Virus record (IMG/VR): IMGVR_UViG_3300025769_000937
Location: 1 to 22,259 of that record
Direction: 5' to 3' (one strand)
Length of the DNA: 22,259 nucleotides
Source of the DNA: a virus
This document shows, one piece after another, positions 2,211 to 22,259 of this stretch. The notes under the pieces are model-generated. The model was not told the DNA's origin and searched no databases. It worked only from the letters and a program-made list of their open reading frames with translations. The position numbers were made by a program, and so were the translations under genes. Each line of letters opens with the position of its first letter. Position 1 is the first letter of the stretch.

Positions 2211-2660
2211 ATGGCCTTTACTGGAAACTTCATGTGTACTTCTTTCAAGAAAGAGCTTCTTGAAGGTGGGCATAACTTTCTTAACTCAGGTGGCGACACC
2301 TTTAAACTAGCATTGTACGACAACAATGCATCATTTACAGCGGCTACAACAGATTACACAACAACTAACGAAGTTTCTGCTTCAGGTTCGTATTCTGCTG
2401 GTGGCGGTACTTTAACTCGTGTTGATCCGGCTTCGTCTGGCACAACTGCGTTTACTGATTTTGATGACCTTACCTTTACGTCAGCAACAATCACTGCGCG
2501 TGGTGCGTTGATCTATAACACAACCGAAGGTGCTGGGACAGGCACAACAAACACTGTTGTGGTTCTAGACTTTGGTTCAGATAAAACTTCTACGGCTGGA
2601 GACTTCCAGATTGCGTTTCCAACAGCGGACGCTTCAAATGCGATCATCCGTATCGCTTAA
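2211..2660 (+). CDS. Putative minor structural (beta-rich) protein
   Basis: This 149-residue protein is rich in Thr, Ser, Gly and Ala, with alternating hydrophobic and polar residues typical of beta-sandwich virion proteins. It begins MAFTGNFMCTSFKKELLEGG, then FKLALYDNNASFTAATTDY, and ends DFQIAFPTADASNAIIRIA. This N-terminus is common in marine phage virion operons. A role as decoration or tail-associated protein is inferred from composition and from its place between the connector genes and the first fiber gene. AAGGAGA lies close upstream of the ATG, one nucleotide after the previous stop. No catalytic motif is visible. Confidence 0.65.
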   Translation: MAFTGNFMCTSFKKELLEGGHNFLNSGGDTFKLALYDNNASFTAATTDYTTTNEVSASGSYSAGGGTLTRVDPASSGTTAFTDFDDLTFTSATITARGALIYNTTEGAGTGTTNTVVVLDFGSDKTSTAGDFQIAFPTADASNAIIRIA

Positions 2661-2686
2661 CTGTAGATAATTAGGAGATTGTTGCG

Positions 2687-4624
2687 ATGGCTCTTGTTGT
2701 AAAAGATCGTGTAAAAGAAACCACCGCGACGACAGGACAAGGAACTCTGACTTTGGCTGGTGCCGTTTCAGGGTTCCAATCCTTTACGTCTGCGCTGTCT
2801 GACGGGGATACGACATATTATGCTATCTTTGAAACCAGCACTAACGAGTGGGAAGTTGGACTTGGTACGTTTACAGCATCGGGTACAACACTAGCCAGAA
2901 CAACAATCCTAGAAAGCTCAAACGCTGGATCAGCTATTAACCTAACGGCTGGTGCAGCAGATGTGTTTATCACACAGCCTGCCGAAAAGGCAGTGTATCT
3001 GGATGCAAGTGATAACGTCACTTTTGCAGGCGATTTAACTGTAGACACAAACACACTGTATGTTGACAGCACAAACAATCGTGTTGGCATTGGGACGACT
3101 TCGCCAGCCACTCAAGCAAGTGTGCAAAACGCATCAACATCTCTTGGTTTAGAAATAGACACTACATCAGGTTTTGCTTCTGGCCCAACTCTTCGTGGAT
3201 ATTATCGTACAGGTAGTGCGTACAAGCCTATAGCAATGTCAGGTAGCACTGTGCATTTTGGGATAAATGACGTTGAAAAAATGCGCATTGACAGCGGCGG
3301 TAATGTTGGGATTAACACTTCCTCTGCCGTTCCTTTGGATGCAAATGCACAGCTTTTAGCCATTCATGGCGATGCTGTAGGGGCTGAGAGAGCGCAAATT
3401 AAACTGACGACTACAACCAGCGGTCAAGCGGCTGGCGATGGATTTTATATAGCTGTAGATGATAGTGCAGCTTATATCTCTCAAAGAGAAAACCAACCCT
3501 TAATTATTTCGACTAATGCCACAGAACGCATGCGCATCGACAGCAGCGGTCAGGTTGGCATTGGGACGAGTTCGCCTAGTAGTGCATTAGACGTAGACCA
3601 GTCACAAAATGCTGAAACAAATATAGAGTTAACAAACACAAATACAGGTTCTTCGGCACAGGTACGCACAAAGTATACGACTGATGGCGGTTTGTTTACG
3701 GTAGGTAAAACAAGTGACGCACATGCCTTTGGTGGGGATGCGTATATTTATAATGTGGACAACACAAATATTCGGTTTGCCACTAACGACACAGAACGCA
3801 TGCGCATCAACAGCAGCGGTAACGTGCTGGTGGGGACTACTGATGATAGTGTCTACAATAACAGCGGCTCTGGCACAGGAATTAACCTTCAGAACTTTGG
3901 TAACATTGCAGTAGCCAGAGATGGTAATGACTGCATGGTTCTCAATCGCCTTAACTCTGACGGTGCCATTGCATTGTTCAACAAAGACGGCACCACGGTG
4001 GGTAGTATTGGGAGTGTTAGCGGCTCAACTGCTTATATAGATGGTGGCTCTGGGTTTAGCGGCATTCAGTTTGGTGGGGATGGCCTTGTTCCACGAGATA
4101 ATGGTGGATTAGCAGATGCTACATCAGATTTAGGCACTTCATCATACCGCTTCAGAGACCTCTACCTCTCTGGCTCTGCATATGCAAATGCTTTGGTGCA
4201 TGATGGTGACACCGACACTTATGTTGGGTTTGAGACCAATCAAGTAAACCTTCGCGCTGGCAACGTAGAAATGTCTTACAATGCCAATGGTTTGTTTCTT
4301 AATGATGGGTCTGTGCGTGAAGATTACGATGCTCTATCAGGAACAAGCCCAACATGTAATGTAAACAGTGGTGGCGCATTTAGCCTATCAATGTCAGGCA
4401 ACACTACATTCTCATTTACCAGCCCAGCAAGTGGTTACTCTACAGGCTTTGTCCTACAGCTAACGGGCAACGGCTCAACGGTCACATGGCCTAGTTCAGT
4501 AGATTGGGCTGGCGGCACTGCTCCTGATGCACCTGCTAGTGGTGAAACTGATATACTTGTGTTCTGGACGAGGGACGGCGGTACTACGTGGTACGGCTTC
4601 CAAGCTGGAGATGCAATGGCATGA
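2687..4624 (+). CDS. Tail fiber protein 1 (cassette 1)
   Basis: This 645-residue trimeric-fiber-like protein has four visible regions. Residues 1-105 form an N-terminal domain (MALVVKDRVKETTATTG to FITQPAEKAVYL) of the type that anchors marine phage fibers to the tail. Residues about 110-390 form a shaft with recurring RMRIDSSGxVGIGTSSP-type units near 132, 199, 283 and 373. Residues 482-526 hold LGTSSYRFRDLYLSGSAYA and DTYVGFETNQVNLRAGN, a common fiber motif. Residues about 547-645 are a terminal module (YDALSGTSP to GGTTWYGF) also found at the end of the fiber at 7278-8402. Its stop lies inside an ATGA overlap with the downstream beta-propeller gene, and the terminal codons carry that gene's GGAG. 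TAGGAGA precedes the start. Confidence 0.85.
   Translation: MALVVKDRVKETTATTGQGTLTLAGAVSGFQSFTSALSDGDTTYYAIFETSTNEWEVGLGTFTASGTTLARTTILESSNAGSAINLTAGAADVFITQPAEKAVYLDASDNVTFAGDLTVDTNTLYVDSTNNRVGIGTTSPATQASVQNASTSLGLEIDTTSGFASGPTLRGYYRTGSAYKPIAMSGSTVHFGINDVEKMRIDSGGNVGINTSSAVPLDANAQLLAIHGDAVGAERAQIKLTTTTSGQAAGDGFYIAVDDSAAYISQRENQPLIISTNATERMRIDSSGQVGIGTSSPSSALDVDQSQNAETNIELTNTNTGSSAQVRTKYTTDGGLFTVGKTSDAHAFGGDAYIYNVDNTNIRFATNDTERMRINSSGNVLVGTTDDSVYNNSGSGTGINLQNFGNIAVARDGNDCMVLNRLNSDGAIALFNKDGTTVGSIGSVSGSTAYIDGGSGFSGIQFGGDGLVPRDNGGLADATSDLGTSSYRFRDLYLSGSAYANALVHDGDTDTYVGFETNQVNLRAGNVEMSYNANGLFLNDGSVREDYDALSGTSPTCNVNSGGAFSLSMSGNTTFSFTSPASGYSTGFVLQLTGNGSTVTWPSSVDWAGGTAPDAPASGETDILVFWTRDGGTTWYGFQAGDAMA
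3521..3820 (+). repeat. Spaced 30-bp direct repeats in the fiber 1 shaft
   Basis: Two copies of a 30-bp unit, at 3521-3550 and 3791-3820, begin acagaacgcatgcgcatc and differ at one base. They encode TERMRIDSSG and TERMRINSSG and similarity continues about 10 bp upstream. A third, more diverged copy lies near 3276-3310. A separate repeat of about 23 bp encoding VGIGT(T/S)SP occurs at 3083 and 3554. They are the DNA trace of a repeated shaft unit and could allow shaft-length change by recombination. Confidence 0.8.
4607..4610 (+). promoter_or_regulatory. GGAG ribosome binding site inside the fiber 1 3' end
   Basis: GGAG lies 10 nt upstream of the ATG at 4621 and supports that start rather than the in-frame ATG at 4588, which has no good site and would place 33 bases of overlap inside the conserved fiber module. 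The second cassette has GGAG at exactly the same distance from its overlapping ATGA. Confidence 0.65.
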
Positions 4625-6012
4625 GTTTAATGGTAAAAAAGTTAGGCATGGCAGCGGCAGGTGCAAATACAGAAGCACCTGTTGGAGATTACTTTGCTGT
4701 ATTCAATAATAATGGAACATCTCCTTGGACTGATGCAGAGTTTTGTATAGATGTAACAACAGATAGCAGAAACCAAGTCTATTCTCTTTGGGGTGTGGGT
4801 GGTAGTACGAGTTATAATATCATCGTTCTGAAACAAGATGAAAATGGGAGCATCCAGTGGAAACGGTACTTTAGCTGGGGAGCGTCAGGGGCTGGTTGGA
4901 CTCCTACGGCTGTTCGCTGTGATAGCTCTGACAGACCACATGTTTTATTTTGGAATCAAAGTGGGCCACCTCAAAGTGGCGAATTGCACTGCTTAAACCC
5001 ATCTACTGGAGCTACGAACTTTTCAACGCGCTGGACGGATACTGACCAATCAGGTGGTTATAGTGGGTTTCAGTTTTATCAATCCTATTTAGCTGCGCAA
5101 TTAATGGAGATAGATAACGACACTTTGTATATGTGTGGTAACGCGTACCCTTCTCCAACTACACGAAAAAACCTAAGCCTTATTTATTCCATAGGATCAA
5201 GTAGCTACACATTAGAAGTCGCAACTGAAATAGGGCCAGACTCAGATAATAGTAGTCCAGATACTTTGGCCTGTGGAACGTACAATGGCAACTTAATCGC
5301 AATAGTTGTTTTGTACGGTGAGAGGGGTATTGTTACACATAATGATTCTGGAACCCAACAGGGTAATACTCTCAACCTTAGTAGTTATGGTTCTAGTTCT
5401 AGTTCTTCTTACATCGACAAAAACACGGGCAATATTTACTTAATAGACTTCGCCAATAGTGAAGTAGATTTCCTTGTTGTTAAGTATAACTCGTCTGGCA
5501 CAAAGCAATGGGAGAAGAAGTTTACAGAAAATACAACTTATGTATCTCGTGTTTTGTACTATTATAATGGTCTAACTGTAGATGCAGATGAGAACGTATA
5601 TGTAAACTTTACTGCTGAAAAAAATTATTGGCGAAATTGCGTTATGAAGCTCAACTCTTCAGGTACTTTGCAATGGGTTCAGCCTATTACGTGGAGTCAA
5701 AACACAGATATATTTGCACAGCGTATACACATTGATCAATCAGGGAGCTTGTACGCTACAAGTTCTAGCAGGGGCGCATTAATAAAGTTTCCTTCAGATG
5801 GTTCTCTAACAGGGAGCTGGAGTGGTTTTGGTTCTTATAGTTTAACCTTGGGCAATGACAATTGGGTTACAGAAGGCTCTAATAATAAGTGGAGTAATTT
5901 GTCTTCTTTAGGAGCTATCTATGTTTCAGGAACTCAAACTCCTCGCAGCCTTACCCCTCTAACAAACAACAGCGGCCCTACTACCAACCCTGCCACAAAT
6001 ACACTTAGTTAA
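4621..6012 (+). CDS. Beta-propeller adhesin-like protein 1 (cassette 1)
   Basis: This 463-residue protein starts MSLMVKKLGMAAAGA and is built of beta-propeller-like blades with an NSSGxxQW signature: IIVLKQDENGSIQWKR (67-82), LVVKYNSSGTKQWEKKF (285-301), VMKLNSSGTLQWVQP (341-355) and a degenerate IKFPSDGSLTGSW (388-400). Between them lie strands such as VDADENVYVNF and IDQSGSLYATS. This resembles the SBBP/PQQ-like propeller-repeat families. It overlaps the fiber gene by ATGA, so the two products are probably made together. A matching fiber-propeller pair lies downstream. I infer a fiber-tip or receptor-binding role. No enzyme active site is visible. The Ser/Thr/Asn-rich tail (after about 440) looks disordered. 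Confidence 0.75.
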   Translation: MSLMVKKLGMAAAGANTEAPVGDYFAVFNNNGTSPWTDAEFCIDVTTDSRNQVYSLWGVGGSTSYNIIVLKQDENGSIQWKRYFSWGASGAGWTPTAVRCDSSDRPHVLFWNQSGPPQSGELHCLNPSTGATNFSTRWTDTDQSGGYSGFQFYQSYLAAQLMEIDNDTLYMCGNAYPSPTTRKNLSLIYSIGSSSYTLEVATEIGPDSDNSSPDTLACGTYNGNLIAIVVLYGERGIVTHNDSGTQQGNTLNLSSYGSSSSSSYIDKNTGNIYLIDFANSEVDFLVVKYNSSGTKQWEKKFTENTTYVSRVLYYYNGLTVDADENVYVNFTAEKNYWRNCVMKLNSSGTLQWVQPITWSQNTDIFAQRIHIDQSGSLYATSSSRGALIKFPSDGSLTGSWSGFGSYSLTLGNDNWVTEGSNNKWSNLSSLGAIYVSGTQTPRSLTPLTNNSGPTTNPATNTLS

Positions 6013-6023
6013 CGGAGACTAAA

Positions 6024-6488
6024 ATGTATGTAAAAGTTACAGACGGTGAGATAGATCAGTTTCCTTACACACTTGAAAGTCTGCGTGAGGATAACCCTAC
6101 CACCTCATTTCCTAAAAACCCCTCATCTGATCTTTTAGAGAGTTTTGGGTTGTACACGGTAAATCCTGTGCCAATGCCAACGATTGATGAGAGAACGCAG
6201 TTTATTGCTCAAAATAGCCAACCTCATTTAGAGGATGGTCAATGGTTTCGTGGTTGGACGGTAACAGATAAAACAGCGGATGAGATTTCAGACTATGATG
6301 CTTTTATGGGAGACAGGATGCGTACTCGTCGTAATGAACTCTTAGAAAAGAGTGATTGGACACAGGTTCCTGATAGCCCATTATCCGACGCGGACAAGGC
6401 GGCATGGGCCACGTATCGACAAAGTCTGAGAGATATCTCCAGCCAAGAAGGGTTCCCCAATTCAATAACTTGGCCCACCTCACCATAA
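6024..6488 (+). CDS. Tail fiber assembly chaperone-like protein
   Basis: This 154-residue protein has a C-terminal region (about 98-154) with RMRTRRNELLEKSDWTQVPD, then DADKAAWATYRQSLRDI and ITWPTSP. That is the hallmark of the phage tail assembly chaperone family (Phage_tail_APC type), whose members help fold or trimerise fibers. The N-terminal half begins MYVKVTDGEIDQFPY and has a GQWFRGWTVTDKT strand. It sits between the two fiber/propeller cassettes, so it could serve either or both. Some members of this family are fused to fibers or become virion components, so a structural role is an alternative. GGAGA precedes the ATG, 12 nt after the previous stop codon begins the gap. Confidence 0.75.
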   Translation: MYVKVTDGEIDQFPYTLESLREDNPTTSFPKNPSSDLLESFGLYTVNPVPMPTIDERTQFIAQNSQPHLEDGQWFRGWTVTDKTADEISDYDAFMGDRMRTRRNELLEKSDWTQVPDSPLSDADKAAWATYRQSLRDISSQEGFPNSITWPTSP

Positions 6489-6500
6489 CAGGAGCATACG

Positions 6501-7268
6501 ATGTTCGGCTTTACTCCATTTTCACAGTCAAGTTTTAGCGATGACGGTGTCGTTGACCTATCTGTTAGTGTCACAGGGGTAGAGGGAACAGGCGAAGTTG
6601 GCACAGCCACCGCTAAAAACGTCATCACAGTTAATGTTACAGGTCTTGAAGGCACAGGTAATGTAGGAACATCTGTAGCTACTGGCGGAGCTAATACTCC
6701 ACAAACAGGTATAGAAGGCACTGGTGAGGTTATGACAGGTTCTCCAACGATTGTTGGGGATGCGAATGTTTCTGTCACTGGGATCGAAGCCACAGGCGAA
6801 GTTGGTATAGCAGAAGCTAAGATTGTTGCCTTTGCACAGGTCACAGGGGTCGAAGCCACTGGTGAGGTTGGTGATGCGACAGTAGGAGCGGGTGCGGTTG
6901 TTTCTCCAACGGGTGTTGAAGGTACAGGTAATGTAGGCAGTGCAACAGCCACAGGTTCAGGTGTTGCCCCTGCAACTGGAATAGAAGGCACTGGCGAAGT
7001 TGGAAGCGTTGTTGTCAATAGTGACGCGAACGTATCAGTCACAGGGGTCGCAGGAACAGGTGAAGTTGGTGACGCAACATCTGCTGTAAACATAACCGCA
7101 AACGTAACAGGGGTAGCCGCGTCTACAGGTGTGGGTCAGGTCTCTATCGTAATCAATGCAAATGTATCTGTAACAGGTGTAGCTGGCACTGGTGAGGTGA
7201 CATCTCCTGTTGTTTGGGGTAGAATCGTTCCAAGCCCGAATACCATTTGGACAGAAATAGCCGCGTAA
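6501..7268 (+). CDS. Repeat protein built of ten ~22-residue TGxEGTGEVG units
   Basis: This 255-residue protein has a short N-terminal cap (MFGFTPFSQSSFSDDG), ten repeats over residues about 22-236 and a C-terminal cap (VVWGRIVPSPNTIWTEIAA). Each repeat has the form (V/A)xVTG(V/I/L)(E/A)(G/A)TG(E/N)VGxxxV. It is strongly acidic, has almost no Lys/Arg, and the strand-turn pattern suggests a beta-solenoid or elongated rod. Similar repeats occur in marine phage structural proteins as far as I recall, with no firm function. Its place between chaperone and second fiber suggests a fiber or decoration component. GGAG precedes the start. A long antisense frame here mirrors the repeats and is not a gene. 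Confidence 0.8.
   Translation: MFGFTPFSQSSFSDDGVVDLSVSVTGVEGTGEVGTATAKNVITVNVTGLEGTGNVGTSVATGGANTPQTGIEGTGEVMTGSPTIVGDANVSVTGIEATGEVGIAEAKIVAFAQVTGVEATGEVGDATVGAGAVVSPTGVEGTGNVGSATATGSGVAPATGIEGTGEVGSVVVNSDANVSVTGVAGTGEVGDATSAVNITANVTGVAASTGVGQVSIVINANVSVTGVAGTGEVTSPVVWGRIVPSPNTIWTEIAA
6564..7208 (+). repeat. Ten imperfect tandem repeats of about 66 bp
   Basis: The array encodes the ten protein units of the gene at 6501-7268. DNA copies are diverged at synonymous positions (for example cacaggggtagaggga versus aacaggggtagccgcg), so the array is old or kept by protein selection, not a recent expansion. Units 2, 3 and 9 deviate most (an insertion in unit 3, GVAASTGVG in unit 9). Confidence 0.85.
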
Positions 7269-7277
7269 GGAATAGTC

Positions 7278-8402
7278 ATGCCCAGCACATATTCACAAAA
7301 CACAGGTATCGAACTCATAGACAACGGCGAACAGTCGGGTACATGGGGCGATACAACAAACACAAACTGGGAAATTGCAGACCGCGCAATAAACGGCGTT
7401 GGCACTATTGACCTATCTAGCTCTGGTGCAGCCCATACACTGTCAACTACAGACGGCACACTGTCTGACGGCATGTATCGTGTATTAGTTTTGAGTGGTG
7501 CAACAGAAGCATGTACTATTACTATCGATCCAAGTAACGCTGCTAAGTTTTACATTGTAGATAACGGTACGAGTTATTCTTGCACGTTCACACAGGGTTC
7601 AGGCGGTAACGTAACAGTTCTTTCAGGAGATACCGCACTTATTTATGCGGATGGTGGTGGGGCTAGTGCTGCTGTTGTGGATGTAACATCAACGCTTCCT
7701 GTTCTTCAAACCGCAAACAATCTATCTGATGTGACAAATGCATCTACAGCGCGAACCAACCTTGGTGTGGCTATCGGAACAGATGTTCAAGCGTATGACG
7801 CTGGATTGCAATCTATTTCAGGCTTAACAACTGCCGCAGATAAGATGATCTATGCAACTGCGTCAGACACATATGCGGTTACTGATCTAACGTCTTTTGC
7901 TAGAACTATCTTAGACGATGCCGATGGCGCAGCGGTAGTGGCGACACTTGGAATAACAGCATCCATCGCAGAGCTAAACTATAACGACATTACAACCCTT
8001 GGCACTTCTCAAGCATCTAAAGTTGTAACAGCCGATGCTTCAGGGGATGTGTATGTTTCTGAAGAGTTGAAGGCAAAGAGTTACAATGAGACAGTAGACG
8101 CTCTCTCTGGAACAACTCCATCTGTAGACTGTGAAGCGGGTAACTTTTTTACACTTACAACGTCGGGCAATACGACCTTTACGTTTAGTAATCCACCTGC
8201 CACAGGCACGGCTTACGCCTTTGTTGTTAAAGTTGTAGGTGGTGGTTCTTATACATTAACGTGGCCTGCCTCTGTTGTTTGGCAAGGTGGCGGCACTGTT
8301 CCTGACTATCCGTTGAGCGGTGAGACTTATATGTACGGTTTTATCACCCACGATGGTGGGACAACTTGGTATGGATTCTTGTGTGGAGCTGATTTCCAAT
8401 GA
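7278..8402 (+). CDS. Tail fiber protein 2 (cassette 2)
   Basis: This 374-residue protein has an N-terminal domain (1-130) beginning MPSTYSQNTGIELIDNGEQ followed by SGTWGDTTNTNW, a familiar phage-fiber N-terminus different from that of fiber 1. A shaft (about 147-226) has NNLSDVTNASTARTNLG, AYDAGLQSISGLTTAADK and ARTILDDADGAAVVATLG, widespread short fiber repeats. The C-terminal module (about 274-374, VDALSGTTP to GGTTWYGF) matches the end of fiber 1. The stop is within an ATGA overlap with the second beta-propeller gene. The shaft is much shorter than that of fiber 1, so the two fibers should differ in reach. Start by ATG 9 nt after the previous stop, with AAGGA upstream. Confidence 0.85.
   Translation: MPSTYSQNTGIELIDNGEQSGTWGDTTNTNWEIADRAINGVGTIDLSSSGAAHTLSTTDGTLSDGMYRVLVLSGATEACTITIDPSNAAKFYIVDNGTSYSCTFTQGSGGNVTVLSGDTALIYADGGGASAAVVDVTSTLPVLQTANNLSDVTNASTARTNLGVAIGTDVQAYDAGLQSISGLTTAADKMIYATASDTYAVTDLTSFARTILDDADGAAVVATLGITASIAELNYNDITTLGTSQASKVVTADASGDVYVSEELKAKSYNETVDALSGTTPSVDCEAGNFFTLTTSGNTTFTFSNPPATGTAYAFVVKVVGGGSYTLTWPASVVWQGGGTVPDYPLSGETYMYGFITHDGGTTWYGFLCGADFQ
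8385..8388 (+). promoter_or_regulatory. GGAG ribosome binding site inside the fiber 2 3' end
   Basis: GGAG sits 10 nt before the ATG at 8399, in the last codons of the fiber gene. Position and spacing match the site at 4607-4610 in cassette 1, supporting a conserved coupled arrangement. Confidence 0.65.
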
Positions 8403-9877
8403 GTTGGCTTGCAACTGTTGCTTTATCTTCAGATACAGAAGCTGGTGATTGGATGGCGAATGCCTCTTATCACAACAACACAGTTGATTTCTTTGACAAT
8501 GCTGTAGGCGGCTTGAAGGTAGACGGTAATAGCAGATGCATTTTTGCTGGGACAGGCGCACCTGGGTTGGGTGTTGGCTGCTTGAGTCCATACGGCACAA
8601 TCACAGGTATAGCTGGAAGCAATGGCTTTACAGTGTCTGGAGGCGGCACTTATAGTCCACAAGCATATCTAATGAAAAACAGTAGTGACAATATCTACGG
8701 TCTTTACTCGTTGACGTATGATAGCCCAGTGCCAGGAACTACCACTGAGGGATTTACGATTTTATCTTTCAACTCAACTACTGGTGCATCAACAGTATAT
8801 AACTATGGACGCGCAGACTATAGTTTCTCTGATAGTCCATTTACTCAAATGACAAGCGGTGCATTTGATGGCAGTGATAACTTTTATGGGTTTGGTCGAA
8901 TAAGACGCGCGGGATCGTATGAGTATCCCTTTTTAGTGAAGTATAACTCTTCAGGAGTTGTTCAGTGGACTAAAGGATTGCAGCCAAGTGAGTACATATA
9001 TTCAGGTAATGGCTACGCTGACAATATAAGCAAGCTCTTAGTTGATAGCAGTGGCAATTCGTATTTTGTTCTTAGGCGTAATCTCACTTCTCCACCTAGT
9101 ACTGATTATATACTGCTGAAGTACAATTCTAGTGGTGTTCAGCAATGGGTAAGGGAGTTAGACAATGGTCTAAATATGGCTGGGCTTCAGGTAACAGATG
9201 GAACCAATATATACATCTTAAATGCAAGTGGGGTGTTGATTGCAGTAAGCTGCTCTACTGGGGCGGTTTCATGGGAACGTACTATATATAATTCTGACTT
9301 CACATCTTTTAATGGAAATAACGCATCCGCAGTTTTATATGACGGTTATCTTTACTGTAGTTTTCATACCTCAAGTGGTAGCCATGTAATCGCAAAAGTT
9401 AGCACTTCAGGAACTTTAGACTGGGGTAGAGAAATATCTGTTCCATTTCCACCTGTTGGCACTGGGTTTCAAACTGGCGTTATTGGTGACGTTGATGACA
9501 ACAAGATGTATTTCTATTTTGAAGGGCCAACTTCTCAAAGTGTTACTACCTTTAAGTTGCCTACTGATGGAAGCAAGACGGGAACTCACACATTTCCAAA
9601 CTTAATTAGTTATGGCGGTAGTGAGCCGTATAGCTACACATTAGTTGAGTTTGACATTTTGTACGCAGATAAAAGCCTTATAGCTGCAACAACTTCTGGG
9701 CAGTCTACCACAAGCACTACTTGGAGTGACTTTACTCCGACGATAGGTTGGACAAAAGCAGACGTTACTAAAGTGGAGTTTGACGTAAGTCTTTCACAAG
9801 CTGACGTGCAAACGTATCGCGCACCAAGTAATATCTATAACCCTGTTACCATAGCAGAAAAACGAGATATAAACTGA
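8399..9877 (+). CDS. Beta-propeller adhesin-like protein 2 (cassette 2)
   Basis: This 492-residue protein is the counterpart of the product at 4621-6012. Blades with the NSSG/TSG-xx-W signature are at PFLVKYNSSGVVQWTKGL (177-194), YILLKYNSSGVQQWVREL (237-254), LIAVSCSTGAVSWERTI (280-296), VIAKVSTSGTLDWGREI (330-346) and TTFKLPTDGSKTGT (383-396). The last matches IKFPSDGSLTG of propeller 1. The first 50 residues differ from propeller 1. The C-terminal region (about 440-492) lacks blades and may dock to the fiber or tail. No catalytic motif is seen. The gene is coupled to fiber 2 by ATGA, and I infer a host-surface binding role from this arrangement and from the parallel cassette. Confidence 0.75.
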   Translation: MSWLATVALSSDTEAGDWMANASYHNNTVDFFDNAVGGLKVDGNSRCIFAGTGAPGLGVGCLSPYGTITGIAGSNGFTVSGGGTYSPQAYLMKNSSDNIYGLYSLTYDSPVPGTTTEGFTILSFNSTTGASTVYNYGRADYSFSDSPFTQMTSGAFDGSDNFYGFGRIRRAGSYEYPFLVKYNSSGVVQWTKGLQPSEYIYSGNGYADNISKLLVDSSGNSYFVLRRNLTSPPSTDYILLKYNSSGVQQWVRELDNGLNMAGLQVTDGTNIYILNASGVLIAVSCSTGAVSWERTIYNSDFTSFNGNNASAVLYDGYLYCSFHTSSGSHVIAKVSTSGTLDWGREISVPFPPVGTGFQTGVIGDVDDNKMYFYFEGPTSQSVTTFKLPTDGSKTGTHTFPNLISYGGSEPYSYTLVEFDILYADKSLIAATTSGQSTTSTTWSDFTPTIGWTKADVTKVEFDVSLSQADVQTYRAPSNIYNPVTIAEKRDIN

Positions 9878-9891
9878 GGAGACTGTACAGG

Positions 9892-11811
9892 ATGCCACTA
9901 ACAAAGTTACAGTTCCAACCCGGTATTAACAAAGAAACGACATCTTATTCGAACGAAGGTGGCTGGTTTGATTGCGATAAAGTTCGTTTCCGTGCAGGGT
10001 TCCCAGAAAAGATAGGTGGCTGGACAAAAGTTTCAGTTAAATCTTTCCTTGGTAGTTGCCGTGCGTTGCACCCTTGGAGAGCGTTAGACCTTTCCAATTA
10101 CATTGGTGTCGGCACACATCTTAAATATTATATTGAAGAGGGTCAGGGGTATTATGACATAACGCCTATTCGTGCGACAACTTCCGCAGGAGATGTAACC
10201 TTTTCTGCAACAAATGGGTCATCAACAATTACTGTATCTGATACAGCACATGGGGCTGTTTTAGGAGATTTCGTTACATTCAGTGGCGCAGTTAGCCTTG
10301 GCGGCAATATAACAGCAGATGTTCTTAACCAAGAGTATAACATCATAGAAGTAGTTGATTCGGACAGTTACAAGGTGACAGCAAGAACTGCCGACACAAG
10401 CATACCAGATATCACTGTTGACGGTCAGCTTTCTCCCACTCCTGTGACGGCAAATAGTTCAGATACTGGAAATGGTGGCTCTTCAGTTGTTGGTGCTTAT
10501 CAGATTAATGTTGGCCTAGATACATCTGTTTTTGGGACTGGCTGGGGTGCAGGTGCTTGGAGTCGTCAAGGCTGGGGCGATCCTGCTGTTATTGACCCAA
10601 TTAAAGACACTTTACGTCTTTGGGAGCATGATAACTTTGGTGAGGATTTAGTTTTAAATGTCCACAATGGCGGTGTTTATTATTGGGATAAATCCAATGG
10701 GCTGGCAACTCGTGCAGTTGCTTTGGGTGACTTAGCTGGGGCATCGGGTACGCCTACCATAGCGACAAAAACCTTGGTGTCAGATGTTGATCGCCATGTA
10801 ATTGCTTTTGGATGCGATCCATTGAACGATGTCGGTGTGCAAGACCCGTTGTTGATCCGTTTTTCAGATCAAGAGAATGCCGCTGATTGGACACCAACAA
10901 CTACAAATACAGCAGGTGATTTACGTCTGGGTTCTGGGTCAAAGATCGTTACAGCCATCGAAACCAGACAGCAGATTCTAGTTTTTACAGATGTATCTCT
11001 CCACGCGATGCAATACATTGGCCCACCCTTCACATTTGGGATCAACATGATCTCAGAAAACATCACAATCAGAAGTCCTATTGCGGTGGCTGCGGTTGAA
11101 GACACTGTGTACTGGATGGGGAAAAATGAGTTTTACGTCTATAATGGTGGGGTTCAGACGCTGCCTTGTTCTGTTCGTGATTATGTGTTTTCAGACTTCA
11201 ATGCTCAACAAGCAGAAAAATGCTTTGCTGCGGTGAACTCGTCTTTCTCAGAGATTTGGTGGTTCTATCCATCTTCTGGCTCAGACAATAACGATAGATA
11301 TGTTGTATACAACTACCTGCAAAACATCTGGTACTATGGAACACTAACCAGAACGGCATGGATTGATCGGGGTGTTGAAGAAAATCCAATAGCTGCTGGC
11401 AGAGATGGCTACCTTTACAACCATGAAACAGGGTTTGATGATGGAAGTACTAGCCCTGTTACCGCCATATCTGCCTACATTGAGTCTAGTCAATTAGATT
11501 TAGGTGAGGGGGATCAGTTTAGTTTTGTTAGAAGGTTGATACCTGATCTAACCTTTAGGTCTTCTACTGCAACCACACCAACTGCAAACTTTACTCTCAA
11601 AGCGCGGAATTTCCCTGGTGGAGCTTATCTTCAAAGCAATGCTAAATCTGTTGAAAAAACAGCATCTGTTCCTGTAGAGCAGTTTACACAAGATGCTCAT
11701 GTCAGGTTGCGGGGTAGATCAATAGCGATTAGGGTGGATAGTAATATGACTGGCACGGGTTGGAGACTTGGCTCTCCTAGAATAGATGTTAGAAGCGATG
11801 GAAGACGCTAA
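9892..11811 (+). CDS. Putative tail nozzle / stub protein (P22 gp10-like)
   Basis: This 639-residue protein is the best candidate for the main tail-tube or nozzle protein. It begins LTKLQFQPGINKETTSYSNE, with GGWFDCDKVRFRAGFPEKI following. Its middle (about 361-433) has ILVFTDVSLHAMQYIGPP, then IRSPIAVAAVEDTVYWMGKN and EFYVYNGGVQTLP, a pattern typical of P22 gp10-type propeller nozzles. It ends WRLGSPRIDVRSDGRR. Residues about 100-190 (GSSTITVSDTAHGAVLGDFV to VVDSDSYKVTA) look like an inserted beta-domain. The role is sealing DNA in the head and forming the distal tail. It follows the second propeller gene by 14 nt with GAGGAGA, and its stop overlaps the next ATG (TAATG). Length is above P22 gp10 because of the insert. 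Confidence 0.7.
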   Translation: MPLTKLQFQPGINKETTSYSNEGGWFDCDKVRFRAGFPEKIGGWTKVSVKSFLGSCRALHPWRALDLSNYIGVGTHLKYYIEEGQGYYDITPIRATTSAGDVTFSATNGSSTITVSDTAHGAVLGDFVTFSGAVSLGGNITADVLNQEYNIIEVVDSDSYKVTARTADTSIPDITVDGQLSPTPVTANSSDTGNGGSSVVGAYQINVGLDTSVFGTGWGAGAWSRQGWGDPAVIDPIKDTLRLWEHDNFGEDLVLNVHNGGVYYWDKSNGLATRAVALGDLAGASGTPTIATKTLVSDVDRHVIAFGCDPLNDVGVQDPLLIRFSDQENAADWTPTTTNTAGDLRLGSGSKIVTAIETRQQILVFTDVSLHAMQYIGPPFTFGINMISENITIRSPIAVAAVEDTVYWMGKNEFYVYNGGVQTLPCSVRDYVFSDFNAQQAEKCFAAVNSSFSEIWWFYPSSGSDNNDRYVVYNYLQNIWYYGTLTRTAWIDRGVEENPIAAGRDGYLYNHETGFDDGSTSPVTAISAYIESSQLDLGEGDQFSFVRRLIPDLTFRSSTATTPTANFTLKARNFPGGAYLQSNAKSVEKTASVPVEQFTQDAHVRLRGRSIAIRVDSNMTGTGWRLGSPRIDVRSDGRR

Positions 11812-20816: not shown

Positions 20817-21019
20817 TCAGCCTCGATTGTCAGCTTGATTCCGTTTCCCCCGAACAGCTTTATAAGCTCGTCCGCAAAGGCTTCGGTCTCTTTGATCACC
20901 TCGTCGTCGTTTGTCATGGTCGCAAGGTTAAGTGTGACCCCGATAAACTCCATCAGAGATTCGACCTGCATAGGATGCATTTCTCTTAGACCTAAAGATT
21001 TGAACTCTTTCTCAAACAT
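20810..21019 (-). CDS. Small acidic protein downstream of the DNA polymerase
   Basis: This 69-residue, mostly helical protein reads MFEKEFKSLGLREMHPMQ, then MEFIGVTLNLATMTNDDE and ADELIKLFGGNGIKLTIEAD. No family is recognised. It starts at a TAATG overlap with the polymerase stop (shared base at 21019), with GGGGAG 10 nt upstream inside the polymerase 3' end, so translation is very likely coupled. Its TGA stop at 20810-20812 lies inside the end of the plus-strand operon. The genetic link to the polymerase suggests a replication-associated accessory role, which is inference only. Confidence 0.7.
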   Translation of the reverse strand: MFEKEFKSLGLREMHPMQVESLMEFIGVTLNLATMTNDDEVIKETEAFADELIKLFGGNGIKLTIEADY

Positions 21020-22259
21020 TATTCAATGTCTCCCCAATCATTCTGGATATCTACGTCAATCTTCGAGGGAACTTTGAGAGGCACTCCTGTCTCCATGATC
21101 TCCTTGATTTTGTCGGCCTGCTCTTGGCTCTCTATGTTAAAGCATAACTCATCATGGACCGTGAGCATAGGAGTAAGTCCCTCATTATAGCAGTCAAGCA
21201 TCGCTTTTTTTGTTTGATCTGCCGCCGAACCTTGGATCAATCTGTTTAACGCTTTGTAAGTAAACGCTCTTTTGATCAGTGGTCCGTATTCCTTTTGTGC
21301 TTCGTCATGTGGCAGAGGTTTGCCCATACCAAATTGCTTTGGTTCCCACAGTGGGAAACGACACTTGCGGCCTAGCAGGGTACGGATCTGCCCCTGCTTC
21401 GAGGCACGTTGGCTTGCCATCTCCGCAAGCGATTTAACAAACGGAACCTTGGCTTCGTGCTTGTCCATCAACGCCCGTGCATCATCCTTTGATATGTCCA
21501 ACTGGTTGGATAGTTTGCCAACGCCCATGCCATACATGATACCAAGGTTCACGGTCTTGGCTTCCTTGCGACTGATGCCTGCTAAGTCAGCGACCATCTG
21601 GTGCAGGTCAACATCGCCAGTGTTAAACTCATTAACAATATCATCGACCATGTCGTGCCTGTTTACGCCGCCGACTGATGCGGCGAAGTGAACAAGGAGT
21701 CTTGGCTCTTGGCTTGAGTAATCGAACGATCCCCACTTGTACCCTTCGTCTGGAATAAAGAGGCCACGGATCAGTTTTTTTATTTCCTTATCTCTAGCGG
21801 GGATTTGCTGGAGATTAGGATTGGAGCTAGAAAACCGACCCGTGACAGTGCCACCTTCATCTCTTCGAGTAGAGTGGAGTTCTGTATGGATACGTCCATT
21901 GTGCGCGTGTCGGAGTATGCTGTCAATAAAAGTCGAGTCTGCCTTGTCAAACTCTCTTAGCTTGACAAGTGCCTGACAAACCTTCGCAGGGTGATTCGCA
22001 AGGAAGTCTTTTGTGAAACTTGGCGCACCTTTCTCTGTCTTTGGGTACGGCATTTGTAGGTGGTCGAACATCTTCTGGATCGATGCTGATGCCCAGATGT
22101 CTACCTCTTGCCCTGCTTCCCTGTGGATAAAGTCACGCAGCACACTTGTCTTCTCACGGATCAGCTTCTTGTTCTGCTCCGCCTTGTCCAGATCAACCTT
22201 CACGCCGTTGGTCCGCATGTCCAAGAGACATGGAATAAGTCCGGTCTCCAGATGCCATA
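21019..22259 (-). CDS. polA: Family A DNA polymerase, C-terminal (polymerase) part, 5' end outside window
   Basis: The reading frame is open to the window edge: before the TTG at 22224 it continues WHLETGLIPCLL in frame, so the start lies outside. Counting from that TTG, palm and fingers motifs are clear. Motif A is GSFDYSSQEPR (165-175), with D168 as a catalytic aspartate and E173 in the steric-gate position. The O-helix is RKEAKTVNLGIMYGMG (219-234), and motif C is TVHDELCF (355-362) with D358. TGRFSSSNPNLQQIP (128-142) is also typical. The position equal to Phe762 of E. coli Pol I is Leu227. It replicates the phage genome. The exonuclease domain, if present, is outside. The stop overlaps the next gene by one base. 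Confidence 0.95.
   Translation of the reverse strand, partial: WHLETGLIPCLLDMRTNGVKVDLDKAEQNKKLIREKTSVLRDFIHREAGQEVDIWASASIQKMFDHLQMPYPKTEKGAPSFTKDFLANHPAKVCQALVKLREFDKADSTFIDSILRHAHNGRIHTELHSTRRDEGGTVTGRFSSSNPNLQQIPARDKEIKKLIRGLFIPDEGYKWGSFDYSSQEPRLLVHFAASVGGVNRHDMVDDIVNEFNTGDVDLHQMVADLAGISRKEAKTVNLGIMYGMGVGKLSNQLDISKDDARALMDKHEAKVPFVKSLAEMASQRASKQGQIRTLLGRKCRFPLWEPKQFGMGKPLPHDEAQKEYGPLIKRAFTYKALNRLIQGSAADQTKKAMLDCYNEGLTPMLTVHDELCFNIESQEQADKIKEIMETGVPLKVPSKIDVDIQNDWGDIE
21030..21035 (-). promoter_or_regulatory. GGGGAG ribosome binding site for the 69-residue minus-strand gene
   Basis: On the minus strand GGGGAG lies 10 nt upstream of the ATG at 21019, inside the last codons of the polymerase gene (NDWGDIE). 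It supports the TAATG-coupled start of the small gene. Confidence 0.65.

Follow-up and report, generated by a model that had tools for sequence, protein, structure and literature searches.

We analyzed a 22,259-base stretch of viral DNA (the window; positions 1 to 22,259 of IMG/VR virus record IMGVR_UViG_3300025769_000937) that represents the structural region of a phage of the short-tailed type and contains two cassettes, each consisting of a tail fiber gene and an overlapping downstream gene for a putative beta-propeller protein (p1 and p2, respectively). The gene order on the plus strand is fiber 1, p1, a Phage_tail_APC gene, a gene for a tandem-repeat protein, fiber 2, and p2. The two cassettes comprise the following features:

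2687..4624, plus strand: fiber 1 (f1), 645 amino acids (aa), with its own N-terminal attachment part, a long repetitive shaft, and a C-terminal module; PHROGs tail fiber matches
4322..4621, plus strand: C-terminal module of fiber 1, with the class A end GFQAGDAMA
4607..4610, plus strand: GGAG, Shine-Dalgarno sequence for p1, within the conserved Gly codon of fiber 1 and 10 nucleotides (nt) before the p1 ATG
4621..4624, plus strand: ATGA stop/start overlap between fiber 1 and p1, read from the sequence
4621..6012, plus strand: p1, putative tip protein, 463 aa; predicted propeller at residues 22-397 (4684-5811)
4621..4674, plus strand: proposed docking segment of p1, MSLMVKKLGMAAAGANTE, a motif common to tips with unrelated bodies
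7278..8402, plus strand: fiber 2 (f2), 374 aa, with an N-terminal part unlike that of fiber 1 and the same C-terminal module
8088..8399, plus strand: C-terminal module of fiber 2, with the class C end GFLCGADFQ
8385..8388, plus strand: GGAG, Shine-Dalgarno sequence for p2, within the conserved Gly codon of fiber 2 and 10 nt before the p2 ATG
8399..8402, plus strand: ATGA stop/start overlap between fiber 2 and p2, read from the sequence
8399..9877, plus strand: p2, probable tip protein, 492 aa, of the same broad propeller family as p1, with the divergent start MSWLATVALSSDTEAGDW

The sole significant stretch common to the two fibers is the C-terminal module, with 57 of 107 positions identical (53%, E 7e-29) between residues 538-641 of f1 and 264-370 of f2. 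The N-terminal and shaft parts yielded noise-level matches only; at the DNA level, the cassettes match best over 47 base pairs (74% identity, E 0.007). The original prediction, made from the DNA letters, had described this arrangement correctly in its coordinates, shared end module, ATGA overlaps, GGAG placed exactly 10 nt before each ATG, NSSGxxQW repeats in both downstream proteins, unrelated N-termini and shafts, and low DNA identity. AlphaFold2 (AF2) modeling of the module, from 107 aligned sequences, gave a mean predicted local distance difference test (pLDDT) score of 90.8, and a BFVD search retrieved 189 structural relatives (E 0.001 or better) among viral fiber proteins. Among solved structures, the module resembles spike and connector domains of phages at Z-scores of 6-8, a likeness too weak to assign a fold family; the N-terminal domains of CBA120 TSP4 (Z 6.6-6.9) and T4 gp9 (Z 6.3) are tied with other matches, and no convincing sequence relatives were detected among solved structures. 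A scan of viral contigs identified at least 540 module relatives. Both modules match phrog_9017 (E 1.1e-9 for f1 and 1.2e-10 for f2), and the tail fiber C-termini of phrog_9017 and phrog_7760 contain the same module; these families are listed as tail fiber only, and a link to a downstream tip is unrecorded there.

The fiber-tip junction contains an embedded translation signal. The conserved Gly located five residues before the fiber end is encoded by GGA or GGG in 52 of 53 ATGA junctions and in 30 of 58 non-overlapping junctions, compared with 356 of 1,372 other module Gly codons (p 2e-28 for ATGA junctions, uncorrected for relatedness). When only GGA was counted, the comparison with non-overlapping junctions was not significant (p 0.40), so that the signal consists in GGA or GGG. 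Among twelve ATGA fibers that are less than 70% alike, eleven retain the Gly and nine read GGGG or GGAG; a fiber-to-tip spacing of -4 is the commonest in relatives (50 of 129). The last codons of the fiber gene thus contain the Shine-Dalgarno sequence for the tip, and this explains why the junctions of both cassettes are identical, an identity that is more than chance.

The AF2 model of p1 shows a propeller at residues 22-397 (predicted template modeling score 0.80), with low confidence for residues 1-21 and 428-463. The best fold matches are CylK (Z 33 over 335 residues) and a 7-bladed designed propeller (Z 26), so that, according to the model, p1 is a propeller of the 7-bladed type. For p2, the propeller fold is assigned by homology only, through a Pfam PQQ_2 match above the cutoff (32.7 vs 27.6 bits). 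The repeats read NSSGTKQW and NSSGTLQW in p1 and NSSGVVQW and NSSGVQQW in p2. Direct comparison of the two proteins is weak (27% identity over 71 aa, E 2e-4), and profile searches place p1, p2, and about 26 other proteins from the fetched loci of relatives (denoted by L numbers) in one family of about 28 members, mostly 440-500 aa long. Nearly all the others start with a docking-type segment, L234 and L247 beginning with MSIARKLQQTTN. The N-terminus of p1 contains a short predicted helix (residues 3-12; low pLDDT in the monomer model) and the tip motif KLxxAAAGxGG, with a tip profile score of 15.7. Homologues of p1 or p2 were not found in isolates from the phage collection, where a related tip propeller gave partial matches only.

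What follows the module in relatives was assessed from 198 non-redundant module ends, compiled from the scan for relatives and a pattern scan, including class A (WYGFxAGxAM(A/G/S)) and class B (DAAA) ends; in this set, the next gene is usually a tip gene. Among the matches listed, class A ends are followed, mostly at a spacing of -4 or -1, by a gene that starts with MSxxxKLLQAAAGxGG and continues into a body of many kinds, and after 131 of 131 such ends the next gene falls outside a by-eye list of non-tip neighbors; with class B ends, other genes come next more often (32/40). A blunt motif rule recognizes 114 of 132 class A neighbors, compared with 16% of control open reading frames (p 1e-63), and 9 of 42 class B neighbors. 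A profile trained on half of the class A tips recovered 66% of the held-out half at 1% false positives, and several of the top “false” control matches plainly carry the same motif. A pattern scan for class C ends revealed no further fiber of this class, outside the lineage of this phage, in which the module was confirmed. Fiber-tip fusions, looked for as direct proof of partnership, were not found, all 252 module matches ending their reading frame. Of 89 fibers that possess the N-terminal part of f2, 42 have the module and precede tip-type genes (one extends past the end of its contig), whereas the 47 without the module are mostly followed, on inspection, by unrelated genes, with tip-like exceptions including L275, L278, and L170. 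Because these fibers share the N-terminus of f2, the comparison indicates that the tip goes with the module rather than the other end of the fiber.

The bodies of the tips are diverse. The 151 tips fall into 44 body clusters; a Pfam scan of 113 tips detected DUF7483 in 28, laminin-G in 8, and a glycine-rich domain (Gly_rich_2) in 6, and many others match propeller families. From cluster sizes (21, 19, 3, and 3 among the 151 tips), propellers are estimated to account for about 30% of tips. The feature common to the tips is the first ~18 aa, MSxxxKLLQAAAGxGG. By Mantel correlation, the fiber end is associated with the tip N-terminus at r 0.29 (permutation maximum 0.14) and with the body at 0.16. 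Where fiber ends are at least 95% identical and the bodies are non-homologous, the first 20 aa of the tips are 61% identical, vs a background of about 27%. At 30-60% aa identity, identity at the third codon positions of this segment is 0.37-0.43, vs 0.33 expected by chance; these near-random third positions imply selection on the protein rather than a recent DNA patch. In some cases, one N-terminus has differing continuations (L045/L049/L070/L083, MSLTSKLTTIAAAG; L047/L079).

In the cultured Pelagibacter phage HTVC011P (L307 1664-4026), a gene pair with a one-base overlap, in which the second protein has a DUF7483-type body, likely represents the same fiber-tip layout. In Salmonella phage SPN3US (L010 3737-7228) and Vibrio phage D506 (L009 3635-6909), a short protein with the module precedes a “tail protein” of 900-1000 aa that is unlike the marine tips and has no Pfam match; in D506, this junction is also ATGA.

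The original prediction proposed a two-component adhesin in which the propeller docks on the shared fiber end. A separately encoded protein most likely does sit there, but the module is not a dock for propellers as such: it usually occurs without a downstream propeller, since other folds together are commoner, and what the tips have in common is a short segment at the N-terminus. Propeller-specific docking is therefore rejected, and a more general role of the module as a tip attachment site gains. We consider it likely that each cassette encodes a two-component adhesin, a fiber with an exchangeable tip, analogous to gp37-gp38 of T2 and S16 but outside that family; by this analogy, p1 would be the tip of fiber 1 and p2 probably that of fiber 2. 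Each cassette would produce a trimeric-type tail fiber with the C-terminal module as the seat for a separately made tip, which would be translated from the overlapping ATGA start via the Shine-Dalgarno sequence in the last codons of the fiber gene; with this overlap and embedded signal, fiber and tip would be made together. The tip would attach to the fiber end through residues 1 to 15-20, a short hydrophobic or Ala-Gly segment, and the rest of it, here a beta-propeller, would face the host and bind a surface glycan or protein. Because docking would need the short segment only, the body could be swapped freely, providing phages with new tips. On balance, and with less assurance, we also favor a broader interpretation, a widespread plug-in adhesin platform of marine phages that combines a module with a built-in translation signal, an N-terminal peptide of ~18 aa, and dozens of unrelated, interchangeable folds, among them several propeller families, DUF7483, laminin-G, and glycine-rich domains.

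Several points weigh against this interpretation. The class A ends were collected in part by pattern, and the counts refer to the matches listed, so that the frequencies are not population frequencies; relatedness among the phages inflates the pair statistics. The analysis shows the gene order, the shared module, the propeller fold of p1 as a predicted model, an N-terminal segment kept in tips whose bodies are unrelated, the codon bias at the embedded Shine-Dalgarno sequence, and the co-occurrence of tip and module; physical docking, stoichiometry, presence in the virion, and receptor binding are inferred. At L146 (minus strand, near 989) and L312 (4195 onward), an APC/chaperone-type gene seems to come directly after the module-bearing fiber; these loci might be natural tip-less variants. 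The N-terminus of p2 lacks the tip motif and has a profile score of 1.7, vs 15.7 for p1. The p2 start is near that of the p2 counterpart in the relative L003, MSWLTTVALSSDTEANDW, and, judging from this similarity, may be a divergent docking segment; cassette 2 is, at best, a divergent member of the fiber-tip system.

One alternative, which we consider unlikely, is that the tips are not pure adhesins but secreted or virion-bound enzymes, such as glycan depolymerases, that the fiber holds. Sialidases and lyases are among the propellers, and p1 matches some of these; the large “tail proteins” after the module in SPN3US and D506 would fit such a role. Lectin propellers match p1 equally well, however, and no catalytic signature was found in p1 or p2 with Pfam.

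A second possibility, the main rival with regard to mechanism but one to which we assign a low probability, is that the downstream proteins act as transient caps or as chaperones of fiber assembly, like T4 gp38, V22 gp27, and A5 gp9, which would help the module fold and then leave. Such proteins are encoded in the same position; V22 gp27 is required for fiber function but is absent from the final complex (PMC7289586), and related Alteromonas chaperones have been proposed to be transient caps (PMC10579305). Yet p1 and p2, at 463 and 492 aa, are far from the ~22 kDa of the known chaperones, and the bodies of the tips are very diverse, with adhesin-type folds. Neither protein matches a chaperone family in Pfam or PHROGs at E up to 1, and a gene of this type is present separately after p1:

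6024..6488, plus strand: tail fiber assembly chaperone-type gene (Phage_tail_APC; Pfam PF16778, E 6e-24)

A homologue of this gene follows 84 of 116 tips. Given the separate gene and the lack of chaperone family matches, the chaperone reading of p1 and p2 is disfavored.

It is very unlikely that the downstream proteins are virion components attached elsewhere, on the capsid or tail hub, and that the overlap reflects operon packing. Structural genes of marine phages are tightly packed, and the window contains further overlapping gene pairs (at 943, 1263, 1913, and 12345), but the presence of the downstream proteins follows the module rather than the fiber N-terminus, the tip N-terminus correlates with the fiber end, and codon usage is biased at the embedded Shine-Dalgarno sequence.

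A fiber with a separate tip adhesin is, as a kind, already known. The original prediction stated that no system of exactly this design had been described, and this has to be qualified, as T-even gp37-gp38 is a functional analogue (PMC6851490, PMC12892980). In S16 and T2, the separate adhesin gp38 has been proven experimentally to cap trimeric gp37 through its N-terminal part (PMC6851490, PMC12892980). As in the present cassettes, where the overlaps are at 4621 and 8399, the adhesin gene is distinct from the fiber gene and directly downstream of it; the N-terminal part of gp38 docks, and its distal part is variable and sets the host (PMC6851490; PMC12892980), the layout proposed here. The attachment domain of gp38 consists of three helices with three conserved Trp, and 113 aa were exchanged in PP01/T2 chimeras, whereas the docking segment here would be ~18 aa: residues 1-21 of p1 contain no Trp and a single short helix modeled at low confidence, and p2 has Trp at positions 3 and 18, with no three-helix Trp domain recognized by Pfam. 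The body of gp38 is a polyglycine sandwich, in contrast to the propeller of p1 and PQQ_2 of p2, neither of which matches gp38 in Pfam; Gly_rich_2 bodies are present among the other tips (6 of 113). The gp26-gp27 and gp8-gp9 pairs of Alteromonas phages V22 and A5 resemble the present cassettes as two-gene host recognition modules of marine phages that are common to unrelated phages, but their downstream protein is small, weakly bound, and outside the final complex (PMC7289586, PMC10579305), whereas here it is variable and large and comes with a chaperone-type gene of its own. In branched tailspikes with T4 gp10-like docking (phiKp24, CBA120 TSP4), one receptor-binding protein likewise docks on another, in one case, as proposed, via a short N-terminal peptide (PMC9700779). 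There, the docking site is near the N-terminus of the primary spike, and here it would be at the fiber C-terminus; the fold match is below the safe level. No description of a peptide-type docking segment, embedded translation signal, wide choice of folds, propeller tip, or this junction was found in the literature searched, most subscription journals being outside its coverage.

The presence of several cassettes per genome, anticipated in the original prediction, is supported; of the two origins suggested there, duplication or separate acquisition, the second fits. The cassettes may provide two receptor specificities, as that prediction also suggested. In the ranking of module identities, where f1 and f2 stand at 52%, f2 is only the 42nd closest to f1 and f1 the 34th closest to f2; the nearest modules in other phages are 84% identical to f1 (L012) and, outside its own lineage, 68% identical to f2. 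Identity between the propeller proteins p1 and p2 is 18%, each being nearer to tips of other phages. These comparisons support separate acquisition of the two cassettes. Tandem duplication within this genome, which would account for the same module, junction, and broad propeller class, is hardly credible and is rejected given these ranks, the divergence of p1 and p2, and the unrelated N-termini and shafts. In the relative L003, fiber 2 and the genes downstream of p2 show 87-94% identity; cassette 2 is conserved (f2 87%, p2 71%), with the same p2 junction, whereas in cassette 1 the shaft differs, the end is of class B, and the tips are different, shaft, end, and tip having been replaced together. 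As L003 keeps cassette 2 and differs in cassette 1, the latter is the variable one. In L003, two WD40-like tips are located in tandem after fiber 1 (1482-2507 and 2518-3591), both with an AAAG-type start.

Most receptor-binding proteins of uncultured marine phages lack annotation. The tip is probably the host-gripping part, interchangeable on a widespread fiber platform, and a recognizable junction, consisting of the module, the embedded Shine-Dalgarno sequence, ATGA, and KLxxAAAGxGG, would allow rule-based detection of receptor-binding proteins in metagenomes and suggests what DUF7483 and many “hypothetical” proteins are likely to do. If ~18 aa indeed suffice for docking, parts for host recognition could be transferred between phages in cassette form, and the way in which marine phages change hosts would become directly testable in isolates, for example, in Roseobacter phages CRP-9 and CRP-4.

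Between the cassettes, after the Phage_tail_APC gene, lies one more gene:

6501..7268, plus strand: tandem-repeat structural protein with VTGVEGTGEVG units, identified from the sequence

Homologues of this protein, with VTGVEGTGEVG-like units, are encoded in 114 fetched loci, often beside or between fibers. Downstream of p2 lies a gene (9892-11811) whose product matches phrog_3287 (E 6e-76), a virion structural protein family, and stabilization-type proteins from several phages, among them Pelagibacter phages HTVC023P/HTVC027P and Roseobacter phages CRP-901/902. The right end of the window contains, on the minus strand (21019-22224) and opposite to the structural genes, a reading frame that, judged by eye, resembles a family A DNA polymerase.

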